Source of the DNA: Thauera aromatica K172
Lineage (GTDB): Bacteria > Pseudomonadota > Gammaproteobacteria > Burkholderiales > Rhodocyclaceae
DNA length: 64,000 nt
NCBI RefSeq assembly: GCF_003030465.1
Contig: NZ_CP028339.1
Location: 3,170,041-3,234,040, forward strand
Direction of reading: 5' to 3'
The notes beneath the pieces are model-generated. The model had not been told where the DNA came from, ran no database searches, and was given only the letters and a program-made list of their open reading frames with translations. The translations under genes and the position numbers were made by a program. Positions 14,518-64,000 of this stretch are shown here, in pieces (positions within the stretch are counted from its first letter, which is position 1; each line of letters starts with the position of its first letter).

Positions 14518-15693
14518 TTACAGCGCATGCACCCGGTCCCCGCTCGCGAACCCCAGCAGGGGGCCGTCCAGACCACGGCCCAGCGCCAGTACCTTGAACA
14601 GCTCGCCCATTTCCTGCGGCGCGGTCAGGCGCTGCACCGCGCGCGCGGCGCGGATGTAATCCGCCCCTTCGCGCGGCCCGCGGCGCTCCAGGCACTGCAG
14701 CACGCCGCAGTTGAACAGGAACCGGGCCTGGGTGGTGTAGCCCTGCACGTCGAGGCCGGCCTCGAACCCGGCCTCGGCCACCGCGGTGAAATCGACGAAG
14801 GCGGTGATGTCGTTGAGCCCCGGCCACAGGAAAGGATCGCCGTGCGCATGGTGACGGTAGTAGCACAGCAGGGTGCCGCTGGCGCGCGACGGCAGGTAAT
14901 ACTCGGCGCGCGGATAGCCATAGTCGATCAGCAACATCGTGCCCGCCTGCAGGCGCTCGGCCCACGCCGCGACCCAGGCGCGGCCGGCGAGGTTGAGCTC
15001 GGTGACGTATTCGCCGCCCGCCGGTGCCGGCAGCGAGAGCGCGAGAGCGGCCGCGCGCACCGCACCGGCAGCGGGCACGTCGGCCCAGCACAGCCGGGAA
15101 GCGCCCGCCCCCTCCGCGGCAAGAGCGACTCCGCGCTCGAACAGCCCGTCGGCGCGCGACACCAGCAGGTGCACCGGCATCACGTCGAGCACCTCGTTCG
15201 CCACCACCGCACCGGAAAAGCGCTCCGGCAGCGCATCCAGCCAATGCACCCGGGCCGCCAGCCGCGGCGCCTTCTGCGCCAGGGTGTCGGCCTGGCGGGC
15301 GCGCAACTCGCCCGACAGCTCGAGAATGCCGTACTGTTCCGGCAGACAGCCGCGGCGCTCGAGTTCGAGCAGCAGGTCGGCGGCGAGCAGGCCGGTGCCG
15401 GCGCCGACTTCGATCACCTGCGCCGCGCTCGCCCGCATCACCTGCTCGAGTTGCGCCGCCAGCGCCTGACCGAACAGCGGCGTCAGCTCGGGCGCGGTAA
15501 TGAAATCCCCGCCGGGGCCGAACTTTCGCGCGCCGCCGCTGTAATAACCCAGGCCCGGCGCATACAGGGCCAGCTCCATGTAGCGCGAGAACGGAATCCA
15601 GCCGCCCGCGGCCTCGATTTCGGCAGCGACGGATTCGAGCAGGCGGGCGCTCTGGGCGAGCGCATCGGCAGACGGTTCGGGCAGGGAAGACAT
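14518..15693 (-). CDS. MidA-type SAM-dependent methyltransferase
   Basis: Class I methyltransferase of the MidA/NDUFAF7 family (391 residues). The mitochondrial homologue methylates an arginine of complex I; bacterial substrates are unknown. The N-terminal family signature YMELALYAPGLGYYSGG leads into the SAM-binding motif VIEVGAGTGLLAADLL. The ATG at 15693 (MSSLPEPSADALAQ) was chosen over an upstream in-frame start because the extra 39 residues are not family-like. The gene is convergent with the chemoreceptor (38-nt gap) and divergent from the SDR gene. Confidence 0.88.
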   Translation of the reverse strand: MSSLPEPSADALAQSARLLESVAAEIEAAGGWIPFSRYMELALYAPGLGYYSGGARKFGPGGDFITAPELTPLFGQALAAQLEQVMRASAAQVIEVGAGTGLLAADLLLELERRGCLPEQYGILELSGELRARQADTLAQKAPRLAARVHWLDALPERFSGAVVANEVLDVMPVHLLVSRADGLFERGVALAAEGAGASRLCWADVPAAGAVRAAALALSLPAPAGGEYVTELNLAGRAWVAAWAERLQAGTMLLIDYGYPRAEYYLPSRASGTLLCYYRHHAHGDPFLWPGLNDITAFVDFTAVAEAGFEAGLDVQGYTTQARFLFNCGVLQCLERRGPREGADYIRAARAVQRLTAPQEMGELFKVLALGRGLDGPLLGFASGDRVHAL

Positions 15694-21800: not shown

Positions 21801-22768
21801 CGGCCACCCTCGGCAAACCACCACTGGTCGCACCGACGATCCGTGCCCAGGTCATCCACTTCATCAACAAGCCGATGCCGGGCAACCTGCCGAAGAAGAC
21901 CAGCCGCGCCCTGCTCGACATCGAGGACGACAAGGTCATCCCGGTGATCCGCGACCCGCAAAAGGCCAACGGCGATTCGGAAGCGGTGTTCTACTTCCCC
22001 GGCTGCGGCTCCGAGCGCCTGTTCAGCCAGGTCGGGCTGGCCACCCAGGCGATGCTCTACCACGTCGGCGCGCAGACCGTGCTGCCGCCCGGCTACCTGT
22101 GCTGCGGCTACCCGCAGACTTCCGCCGGCGAGGACGACAAGGGGCAGAAGATCACCACCGACAACCGGGTCCTGTTCCACCGCGTCGCCAACACCCTGAA
22201 CTACCTCGACATCAAGACCGTGATCGTGTCCTGCGGCACCTGCATGGACCAGCTGCAGAAGTACGAATTCGACAAGATCTTCCCCGGCTGCCGCCTGCTC
22301 GACATCCACGAATACCTGATGGAGAAGGGGGTCAGGCTCGACGGCGTGCAGGGCGTGAAGTACATGTACCACGAGCCCTGCCACACGCCGATGAAGGTGC
22401 ATGCGGGGATCAAGGTCGCCAACGAGCTGATGGGCACCCGCGTCGACCTGTCGGACCGCTGCTGCGGCGAATCCGGCACCCTGGCAGTGGCCCGCCCCGA
22501 CATCTCGACCCAGGTGCGCTTCCGCAAGCAGGAGGAAATCGAGAAGGGCGCGGCGAAGCTGCGCGAGGACGCCCCGGGGGCGAAAGTGAAGATCCTCACC
22601 TCCTGCCCGAGCTGCCTGCAGGGCATGCACCGTTTCGCCGACGACGCCGGGGGCATCGAACCCGACTACATCGTCATCGAACTGGCACGCCACCTGCTGG
22701 GCGAGAACTGGCTGCCCGACTACGTCGCCAAGGCCAACCGCGGCGGCATCGAGCGCGTGCTGCTGTAA
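18887..22768 (+). CDS. DUF3683-FAD oxidase-Fe-S-CCG fusion oxidoreductase
   Basis: 1293-residue fusion of a GlcD/D-lactate-dehydrogenase-like flavoprotein with a GlcF-like iron-sulfur subunit. In order it has an N-terminal DUF3683 region (about 1-130) and an FAD-binding type 4 domain with [14 protein letters not shown] (about 197-210). Then come the FAD-oxidase C-terminal domain ending near [11 protein letters not shown], and two [4Fe-4S] motifs ([11 protein letters not shown] and [12 protein letters not shown]). Two CCG (heterodisulfide-reductase-like) cysteine domains follow, with CCGYP/CGTC and CCGES/CPSC. It probably oxidises a 2-hydroxy acid and passes electrons to the quinone pool, but the substrate is not known. 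It is monocistronic and convergent with the sirtuin. Confidence 0.9.
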
Positions 22769-61493: not shown

Positions 61494-61501
61494 AAACCCC
61501 T
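61494..61501. repeat. Left target-site duplication of the IS
   Basis: AAACCCCT, identical to the 8-mer at 62555-62562. An eight-base duplication is the norm for IS1595-family elements. Confidence 0.8.
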
Positions 61502-61506
61502 CCTGA

Positions 61507-62460
61507 TTAGCAATGAACCTCAGCGGTCCGAATCGCGCGCTGCGGGAGCGGCCCGCAGTTGGCTGCGGCGACGAGCAGGCGCGTATGCAGTGCCCGGAGA
61601 TCGAATCGGCGGTTGAAGCGGTAGGCGAAAGCGGCGAGGTAACGCGCCGCATACTTTCGGAAGTCGAATGCATGGTAGCTCCCGTTCAGACTGGTCTTGA
61701 GGTTGCCCAGCACGGTGTTGATCCACTGGAATTCGGGCAAGTCCTTCGGTTTGCGTCCAGCGACGACGGTCGGCTGATGCGTGCATCCAGCCGCCGTGAC
61801 CGCACCGAAACACGCCAGCCCATCGGAGAACACAGTGCTGCCGGGGGCCAGATGCGTCGTCGCCCACTGCCCGATCGCCTGGAGGCTGAAGCCCGGTACG
61901 GGCGTGAGTTTGGCGCGCAAGGGGTGGCCGTCATCACTGAGGGAGACGGCGGCGACGAAAGGGACCTTGTTTTCCGAGCCGCGACCGACCTTGCCTCCGC
62001 TGCGCTCACCGCCGAGGTAGGCATCATCGATCTGGACCTGGCCTTCGAGGACATAGCGCTGCTCGCGTTCGGCCATCGCCTGCATCAGCTTGTGGTGGAT
62101 CAGCCAGGCGGTCGGGTAGCTCACCCCCAGGTGCCGCTTGAGGGCGAGCGCCGACAGACCGGTCTTGGCTTGGCTGATGAGGTAGATCGCGAGGAACCAC
62201 ACGGTCAGGGCCAATTTCGTGCCCTGCATCACGGTGCCCGCGATCAGCGAGGTCTGATGCCGACAGGCCTGGCACTGGAACAGCGCGTGGGTTCGCCCGC
62301 GCACCCGGCTGTAGGCGGCCCCATCGCAACTCGGGCACCGAAACCCCTGCGGCCAGCGCGCCTGCTCCAACGCCGCCGCGCACTGCGCTTCGGTCCCGTA
62401 GCGCTTGAGAAACTCGGGCATCGACAGGCCGGGTTGAAACTGGATTCGGTTCATTGCCAT
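61507..62460 (-). CDS. IS1595-family transposase
   Basis: 317-residue DDE-type transposase. The N-terminal zinc ribbon has CPSC and CQAC (about 40-65), then a helix-turn-helix-like segment (GLSALALKRHLGVSYPTAW). The catalytic core includes VQIDDAYLGGE and VFSDGLACF for the two Asp residues. It ends with the family-typical YLAAFAYRFNRRFDL. The ATG at 62460 follows GGTGGAG; an in-frame ATG two codons later is possible. The reading frame is intact, so the element may be active. Confidence 0.92.
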   Translation of the reverse strand: MAMNRIQFQPGLSMPEFLKRYGTEAQCAAALEQARWPQGFRCPSCDGAAYSRVRGRTHALFQCQACRHQTSLIAGTVMQGTKLALTVWFLAIYLISQAKTGLSALALKRHLGVSYPTAWLIHHKLMQAMAEREQRYVLEGQVQIDDAYLGGERSGGKVGRGSENKVPFVAAVSLSDDGHPLRAKLTPVPGFSLQAIGQWATTHLAPGSTVFSDGLACFGAVTAAGCTHQPTVVAGRKPKDLPEFQWINTVLGNLKTSLNGSYHAFDFRKYAARYLAAFAYRFNRRFDLRALHTRLLVAAANCGPLPQRAIRTAEVHC

Positions 62461-62481
62461 GGCTCCACCTCTCACCAGATA

Positions 62482-62501
62482 TACTGTACGTACATACAGT
62501 A
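62482..62501. promoter_or_regulatory. LexA (SOS) box upstream of the transposase
   Basis: TACTGT-ACGTACAT-ACAGTA is a 20-mer with perfect TACTGT/ACAGTA arms. It differs from the E. coli consensus only at three central bases. It lies 22 nt before the transposase ATG and overlaps a -10-like TATACT on the minus strand, so LexA binding would block transcription. It sits inside the IS and moves with it. Confidence 0.7.
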
Positions 62502-62554
62502 TAGGCCCGGCGACCGTGGCCGGCCAGCTTGGCTGATCATCATTGCTAATCAAG

Positions 62555-62562
62555 AAACCCCT
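62555..62562. repeat. Right target-site duplication of the IS
   Basis: AAACCCCT, copy of 61494-61501. Confidence 0.8.
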
Positions 62563-62693
62563 TGACGGCGTTCCCTCATCGAACACAGAAGGCCCTCACA
62601 ATTCCCATCATCACTTTTCCACATACGCCAAAGTCATGGCATTATGCTTTGGAAATGTGAAGACACAGATGGACGCCGGTGACCAGAGCCGGA

Positions 62694-64000
62694 ATGGATG
62701 AAATCTCGAGAGACCTGCCGCTGATGTTCGCGCACTCAACCACCAATTCGGGCAGGTCAGACTGGCAGCCGCTGCGCAGTCATCTTGAAAATGTTGGACG
62801 TATGGCGAAGGAGCGTGCCGCCATTTTCGGGGCCCACACTTTAGCGGAAACCTCCGGGCTGCTCCATGACCTTGGCAAGTACACCGCAGACTTCCAGCGC
62901 CGCCTTGCCGGCGACGCGATCCGTGTGGACCACGCGACGCGCGGAGCGATGGTCGCGATCGAGCGCTACGGCCCGCTCGGCTATCTGATCGCTTATGCGA
63001 TCGCCGGCCACCATGCGGGGCTCGCCAATGGGCTCGAGAGCGGCGAGCGCACCGCGCTGCGCGAGCGCCTGCGCGGCACGGGTCTGCCGCCCTTGCTACC
63101 ACAGTGGCAAGATGAGATCCGCTTGCCGGAAGCCTTAGGCGAGCTACCCTTCACGGGCGGCGCGGCGGGCGGGGCGATGTTCCAAGCCGCATTCCTCATT
63201 CGGATGCTGTTTTCCTGCCTGGTCGATGCCGACTACCTGGATACCGAAGCCTTCTACGACCGCATCGCACCGCCGGATCAGCGGGGCGATCGCAGCCGGC
63301 TACGCGCCGTGGAACAACCGTCGCTGGAGGCGCTGCGCGAAAGCCTCGACGCCTCCCTCGCCCGCTTCAGCGCTGATTCCGACGTCAACCGCATCCGCGC
63401 GGACATCCTGGCGCATGTCCGGAATGGAGCGCAGCACACCCCCGGCCTGTTCTCGCTGACCGTGCCCACCGGCGGCGGCAAGACGCTGGCCTCGCTCGCA
63501 TTCGCGCTCGACCACGCAATCCGCCACAACCTACGGCGGGTGATCTTCGTTATTCCCTTCACCAGCATCGTCGAGCAGAACGCCGCGGTATTCCGGCGTG
63601 CGCTGGGTGAACTCGGCGAAACCTCGGTGCTGGAGCACCACAGCGCTTTCATCGCTCCTCAGCTTTCCCGTGACGATGCCGAGCGCTACCAGGCACAGGA
63701 GAAGCTGAGCCTGTCGATGGAAAACTGGGATGCGCCCATCGTCGTCACCACCGCGGTGCAGTTCTTTGAGAGCCTGTTCGCCGCTCGGCCGTCGCAGTGT
63801 CGCAAGCTGCACAATATTGCCGGTAGCGTGGTGATTCTGGACGAGGCCCAAACCCTCCCACTGAAGCTGCTGCGTCCGGCGGTCGCCGCCATCGACGAGT
63901 TGGCGCGCAACTACCGCAGCAGTGTGGTGCTATGCACCGCCACCCAGCCTGCGCTGCAGGCGCCCGAGTTCGTCGGCGGGCTGGAGCGGGTCCGTGAATT
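62694..64000 (+). CDS. cas3: CRISPR-associated helicase/nuclease Cas3, 5' part (type I-C-like)
   Basis: Open to the window edge; 435 codons are visible of an expected 750-850. Cas3 is the nuclease-helicase that degrades DNA unwound by Cascade. An HD nuclease domain (HDLGK at 58-62, GHHAG at 105-109) is followed by a superfamily 2 helicase: Walker A PTGGGKT at 258-264, DEAQ at 383-386, TATQ at 415-418. GLLHDLGKYTADFQRRL and VDHATRGA resemble type I-C Cas3. The ATG at 62694 is in frame; GTG 62679 and ATG 62724 are alternatives. No clear promoter or Shine-Dalgarno is seen. The IS ends 140 nt upstream. Confidence 0.92.
   Translation, partial: MDEISRDLPLMFAHSTTNSGRSDWQPLRSHLENVGRMAKERAAIFGAHTLAETSGLLHDLGKYTADFQRRLAGDAIRVDHATRGAMVAIERYGPLGYLIAYAIAGHHAGLANGLESGERTALRERLRGTGLPPLLPQWQDEIRLPEALGELPFTGGAAGGAMFQAAFLIRMLFSCLVDADYLDTEAFYDRIAPPDQRGDRSRLRAVEQPSLEALRESLDASLARFSADSDVNRIRADILAHVRNGAQHTPGLFSLTVPTGGGKTLASLAFALDHAIRHNLRRVIFVIPFTSIVEQNAAVFRRALGELGETSVLEHHSAFIAPQLSRDDAERYQAQEKLSLSMENWDAPIVVTTAVQFFESLFAARPSQCRKLHNIAGSVVILDEAQTLPLKLLRPAVAAIDELARNYRSSVVLCTATQPALQAPEFVGGLERVRE

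Follow-up and report, generated by a model that had tools for sequence, protein, structure and literature searches.

The window analysed here, a stretch of 64,000 nucleotides, contains a complete insertion sequence (IS), the features of which are listed in Table 1. Its transposase combines an ISXO2-like/IS1595 domain with an N-terminal zinc ribbon (PF12762 and PF12760), which places the element in the IS1595 family, and scored 198.6 bits against the NF033547 profile (cut-off 75); a search of solved structures gave no useful match for the protein. The first ATG of the gene lies at 62460 and the second at 62454, the latter being better spaced from a GGTGGAG sequence as judged by eye. Target duplications of 8 bp are usual in the IS1595 family. 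A previous inspection of the letters and open reading frames (the sequence-only reading) had described an intact IS1595-family element with a perfect target duplication, and this description holds: AAACCCCT flanks both sides, and the profiles and ends agree.

The host genome (3.71 Mb in two contigs) harbors four complete copies of the IS, which are identical over 1053/1053 bp and show a different 8-bp duplication at each site (4/4). A fifth copy (L254, G000:C1:3476860-3479330) is interrupted by a later insertion of ~2.4 kb with an 8-base overlap; as judged by eye from its motif, one frame of this insertion resembles an IS66-type TnpB. Two other genomic matches are fragments without the end that carries the LexA-type site described below; one corresponds to the distal part (84%) and the other spans 46 bases. 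Since the complete copies are identical and yet each has a separate target duplication, they point to recent movement of the element.

A cas3 gene occupies positions 62679-64000 of the window. The IS had been said to abut it; the two do adjoin, but 124 bp separate the IS end from the first possible cas3 start (62679). Past the window (L261), cas3 is followed by what resembles, by eye, a type I-C cas set and a repeat array. We found nothing tying the IS copy beside cas3 to CRISPR function.

Table 1. Features of the insertion sequence in the window (positions of the 64,000-nucleotide stretch) and the corresponding element of cyanobacterial relatives.
Feature	Position	Strand	Basis or remarks
IS1595-family insertion sequence, 1053 bp	61502..62554	-	Genome: four complete copies, all identical, and one interrupted
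IS1595-family transposase gene	61507..62460	-	PF12762 3.1e-34, PF12760 1.6e-14, NF033547 transpos_IS1595 1.1e-58
Terminal inverted repeat, transposase-proximal end	62540..62554	.	CTTGATTAGCAATGA on the - strand
Terminal inverted repeat, distal end	61502..61516	.	CCTGATTAGCAATGA
Target-site duplication AAACCCCT	61494..61501	.	8 bp
Target-site duplication AAACCCCT	62555..62562	.	8 bp
Predicted LexA (SOS) box TACTGTATGTACGTACAGTA	62482..62501	-	12-base pattern, matrix score, arm conservation
Candidate -10 element TATACT	62498..62503	-	Sequence and alignment of relatives; overlaps the box, convincing -35 not found
CTGGTAC-N4-GTACCAG-type palindrome	within ~35 nt upstream of transposase		L109, L191-L201, L204, L218, L250, L253

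Upstream of the transposase gene lies a near-perfect palindrome, which reads TACTGTACGTACATACAGTA on the forward strand and agrees with the LexA-type pattern TACTGT-N8-ACAGTA at each of its 12 specified positions. The distance from its end to the first ATG (62460) is 21 nt, and to the second (62454) 27 nt. Genome-wide, the 12-base pattern occurs at five sites versus none in a reversed control, and all five (5/5) lie within copies of this IS. The presence of the box in sibling copies had been set beforehand as a test, and every copy holding that end (5/5) carries it. The bare core CTGT-N8-ACAG occurs twice in the 64-kb window, where 0.35 sites are expected and 4 of 100 shuffles reach two, and 17 times in the genome compared to 15 in the reversed control. 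As these counts are near chance, the 8-base core was left out of the evidence: alone it is not significant, whereas the 12-base pattern is. The low excess of the core would suit a reading in which the box arose by chance within a short, AT-rich promoter and was copied along with the IS, while the agreement at 12/12 bases argues against it; the relatives discussed below bear on the same question.

The sequence-only reading depended on a host LexA recognising CTGT-N8-ACAG, and such a protein appears to be present. The host genome encodes one LexA, of which residues 6-200 of 202 align with E. coli-type LexA structures; the protein has the helix FRSPNAAE and the cleavage site VAAG, and CTGT-N8-ACAG sites are found in the promoters of both lexA (CTGTTTAAAATTACAG) and recA (CTGTATTTACATACAG; RecA was recognised from its sequence). 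With these features, host LexA is predicted to be able to bind the motif and to cleave itself, and the IS box fits this motif at a place upstream of the transposase gene, as for a member of the SOS regulon.

Within the same family, a LexA match was obtained in 33/41 genomes. Among 30 lexA loci read, 24 showed a box with 7-8 of the 8 core bases (8/8 in 21 of these); the remaining six include four that are cut by a contig end, where the position read may be shifted. From these 24 lexA-promoter boxes, which had themselves been selected for 7-8/8 core bases, we built a matrix. Their leave-one-out scores range from 18.3 to 33.8 bits, and the IS box falls inside this range with 24.9 bits, compared to 4.5 bits for the second-best site in the window. 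Together with the 12/12 bases, this score substantiates the earlier description of a near-consensus LexA site just before the transposase. The second core site in the window (15334-15349) was rejected, as it scores 2.2 bits as a 20-mer.

Further sites of this type were seen elsewhere. Two more AT-rich CTGT-N8-ACAG sites score 29.7 and 36.0 bits (L020:1501-1516 and L021:1501-1516, respectively), and on the small contig CTGTTTTTTTGTACAG occurs twice at a distance of 443 bp (G000:C2:22131-22146 and 22574-22589), perhaps marking a second SOS-controlled locus.

Of 175 relatives in a collection with a single genome for each species, the best 80 were retrieved, and 66/80 were read upstream of the gene; left out were nine further SynAce01 copies, read in a wider cyanobacterial set, and five loci with a match starting at residue 16 or later. 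Two of the 66 loci have an 8/8 core (L060, L062) and 11 a 7/8 core (L066, L076, L079 and eight Nitrosomonas mobilis copies). A tree of 63 transposases groups the window element with L060, L066 and L076 (100/99), and 4/4 members of this clade carry 7-8 of the 8 core bases. L062, an element from Dechloromonas with an 8/8 core, has no firm placement, and constraining it to the clade was not rejected (p-AU 0.49). On a 62-row tree, the box label needs at least two changes; as L062 is loosely placed, one gain and two gains of the box are indistinguishable.

The matrix separates these candidates. L062, L076 and L060 score 28.4, 24.6 and 21.3 bits, and L066 scores 12.4 bits, which is below every lexA box of the matrix. 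The N. mobilis copies (7/8; eight copies, one box) and L079 (7/8) were rejected at 5.0 and -22.5 bits, respectively. L151, a degraded element from a different genome of this genus, combines a 7/8 core with a score of 22.6 bits. Across the five LexA-type elements, the mean pairwise identity is 90% for the eight arm bases and 64% for the spacer, but 31% for the 18 nt just upstream. This difference between the arms and the adjoining sequence is the pattern of a selected site and suggests that the box is under selection.

Among 64 elements, an 8/8 core was found in three versus 0.15 expected from dinucleotide shuffles, and at least 7/8 in nine versus 2.7 expected, although four of these nine (three N. 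mobilis copies and L079) fail the matrix. The excess of complete cores and the retention of the box in elements with 80-86% transposase identity speak against a chance match carried along with the IS. The relatives already contradict that reading, and we consider it highly improbable.

Farther from the window element, the box is mostly missing. A search of the class gave a match in 65/369 genomes, and 30 loci were fetched, one being the window's own copy. Reading 26/29 of the others (L043, L051 and L052 were left out) yielded no 8/8 core and one 7/8 core (L054), within 250 nt per locus and with some matches starting late in the protein, where the promoter may fall outside. Since most farther relatives read lack a LexA-type site, the IS1595 family does not need the box. 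A GCTCA...TGAGC-type element nearer the IS end was found in 18/48 other relatives (one short row left out). In L065, L067, L068, L069, L072, L100, L106 and others without a LexA box, it is a perfect GCTCAC-N3-GTGAGC palindrome located immediately within the left IS end, ~50-70 nt upstream of the transposase.

A combined pattern of the IS end and an 8/8 box, which misses 7/8 boxes such as that of G403 (L141), matched 2/395 genomes of the family, namely the host genome and a cut contig (L262). The latter (G944:C97:33092-33159) shows an IS-like end and a CTGT-N8-ACAG site preceded by TATACTGT with the overall spacing seen in the window, and ends ~120 bases further on, before any transposase is readable. 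Plasmids gave 22 records with 60-80% identity; the best match (LC623919.1), the sole plasmid record read, showed no 8/8 box by eye. The transposase protein search gave no match in viral contigs, nor was there a match in phages. End-plus-box matches in viral contigs (at least 120 stretches) were discarded, because no transposase was found among the matches listed (best 28% identity, E 0.24) and they look like chance. As far as these collections were read, the LexA-type box is confined to one small branch.

Taken together, we consider it probable that the box is an operator carried by the IS itself, through which LexA would repress the transposase and DNA damage would derepress it, as the sequence-only reading had proposed. 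That LexA binds and represses, and that damage induces the transposase and raises transposition, we infer from the sequence. Host LexA bound to the 20-bp palindrome would cover the candidate -10 and block transcription, so that the transposase would stay low; RecA on single-stranded DNA would trigger self-cleavage of LexA; and with LexA gone, the transposase would be made and the element could move.

The promoter is the weak point of this LexA reading. The box had been said to overlap the likely -10, and TATACT (62503-62498 on the - strand) is indeed overlapped, but a sigma-70 scan of the transposase upstream region found no promoter-like -35/-10 pair and the -10 is putative. Transposases often have weak promoters. 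Conceivably, then, the box binds LexA and nevertheless hardly affects movement, owing to a promoter of insufficient strength or to another, dominant control. The lack of a recognisable promoter pair in the scan would fit this, and so would ISCR2, the box of which binds LexA, yet the promoter is very weak even when derepressed (PMC13393415). Against it stands the arm conservation, which suggests selection on the box, and we regard this possibility as rather unlikely.

Several mobile elements invite comparison with an operator of this kind. Tn5/IS50 and IS10, which use DDE chemistry, are transposons linked to SOS as well; unlike the window element, neither of them belongs to the IS1595 family. 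The SOS link is under dispute for Tn5 and concerns UV-induced transposition for IS10, both as cited in PMC13393415. The closest parallel is provided by ISCR1, ISCR2 and ISCR8 (IS91-like, HUH transposase), which likewise have a CTGT-N8-ACAG box overlapping the transposase -10; the same paper reports gel shifts for all three as well as promoter fusions in E. coli, and tight LexA control in E. coli for ISCR1 and ISCR8 (PMC13393415). They differ from the IS1595 element in transposase chemistry and family, and their boxes were demonstrated experimentally, whereas the IS1595 box is predicted from sequence. The weak ISCR2 promoter and the dispute over Tn5 imply that LexA binding need not result in SOS-induced movement. 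Integron integrase genes are a further case of a mobile-element recombinase gene under host SOS/LexA control, although the integron integrase, unlike an IS transposase, acts on gene cassettes (PMC3108266).

Control by host LexA may extend to a second phylum. Most elements of Synechococcus/Cyanobium, with transposases 61-65% identical to that of the window, have CTGGTAC-N4-GTACCAG or a close variant of it next to a candidate -10. By eye, this palindrome corresponds to the window box relative to the -10, while its spacing from the gene and from the IS end differs by ~8-9 nt. Cyanobacterial LexA sites are given as RGTACNNNDGTWCB (Nostoc) and AGTACWNWTGTACT in PMC3091678. The cyanobacterial rows (10/10), which are mutually related and thus few independent cases, match the LexA motif at 10-11 of 11 informative positions (seven of them at 11), whereas 0/54 other rows reach 10 and shuffles give 0.95/64 at 10 or more.

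In a wider search, 41/201 genomes of that cyanobacterial family gave a match. The resulting set comprises 34 loci, including four stretches from G648, and 28 of them hold the gene start: 18 score 10-11, several of these coming from genomes already within the ten-row set, and 10 score 7-9, three being distant members (~30% identity). The palindromy signal is modest, with 73/90 base pairs in 18 distinct boxes versus a shuffle mean of 68.4 (36/2000 shuffles reach it). A GGTAC-N4-GTACC pattern search found no match in SynAce01, where the boxes read GGTAC-N4-ATACC. The box of L208 (GGTAG-N4-CTACC) keeps its symmetry via paired changes and has lost the LexA letters.

All cyanobacterial hosts tested (9/9) encode a LexA, the helix of which differs (LRSPAPIQSR) while the VAAG site, serine and lysine are kept. 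A match at 10 of 11 motif positions is present in 9/9 of their lexA loci (230 nt read) and in 1/9 recA loci (L184), where the stretch starts inside the gene and may stop before the promoter. In marine Synechococcus, mitomycin C induces recA, lexA and umuC, according to PMC3744912. We put the chance that the cyanobacterial palindromes are true LexA operators at about even.

The changing letters also raise the question whether the palindrome is the operator of another regulator, or serves autoregulation by the transposase, its likeness to a LexA box being due to chance. A place that is conserved while its letters change would suit a regulator encoded by the element: the cyanobacterial branch has a palindrome beside the candidate -10 in other letters, 10/28 of the wider loci depart from the LexA motif with L208 retaining symmetry through paired changes, and other relatives have the GCTCAC-N3-GTGAGC palindrome nearer the IS end. 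However, the conserved bases of the window group are exactly CTGT...ACAG, most members having a spacer that alternates between pyrimidines and purines like the E. coli consensus, the window box scores as the lexA boxes of its family do, and the cyanobacterial letters fit the published LexA motif of that phylum. We therefore judge another regulator to be improbable. It could equally well be true or false that one IS1595 subgroup is under host LexA in two phyla, with an operator matched to each host's LexA (CTGT-N8-ACAG in proteobacteria, RGTACNNNDGTWCB-type in Synechococcus/Cyanobium), both at the candidate -10, and that the damage switch was re-tuned on the change of host phylum.

SOS control of transposases is already known from ISCR1, ISCR2 and ISCR8, and the case of the IS1595 family appears to be new. 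The sequence-only reading knew of no description of SOS control of IS1595-family transposition, and titles and abstract openings in the open-licence literature, which are weak evidence of absence, contained no LexA/SOS control of IS1595. The same material contained no LexA operators matched to the host phylum, including those of Synechococcus transposases.

Stress-induced transposition has been widely proposed, but insertion sequences tied to the SOS switch by a direct molecular link are, to our knowledge, few. The element described here offers a clean test, with one short candidate operator, four identical copies and close relatives of which some have the box and others lack it, and the cyanobacterial branch adds what may be another phylum's operator. 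If confirmed, these findings would mean that an insertion sequence can restrain itself via the damage repressor of its host and re-tunes this link to LexA on moving between phyla.
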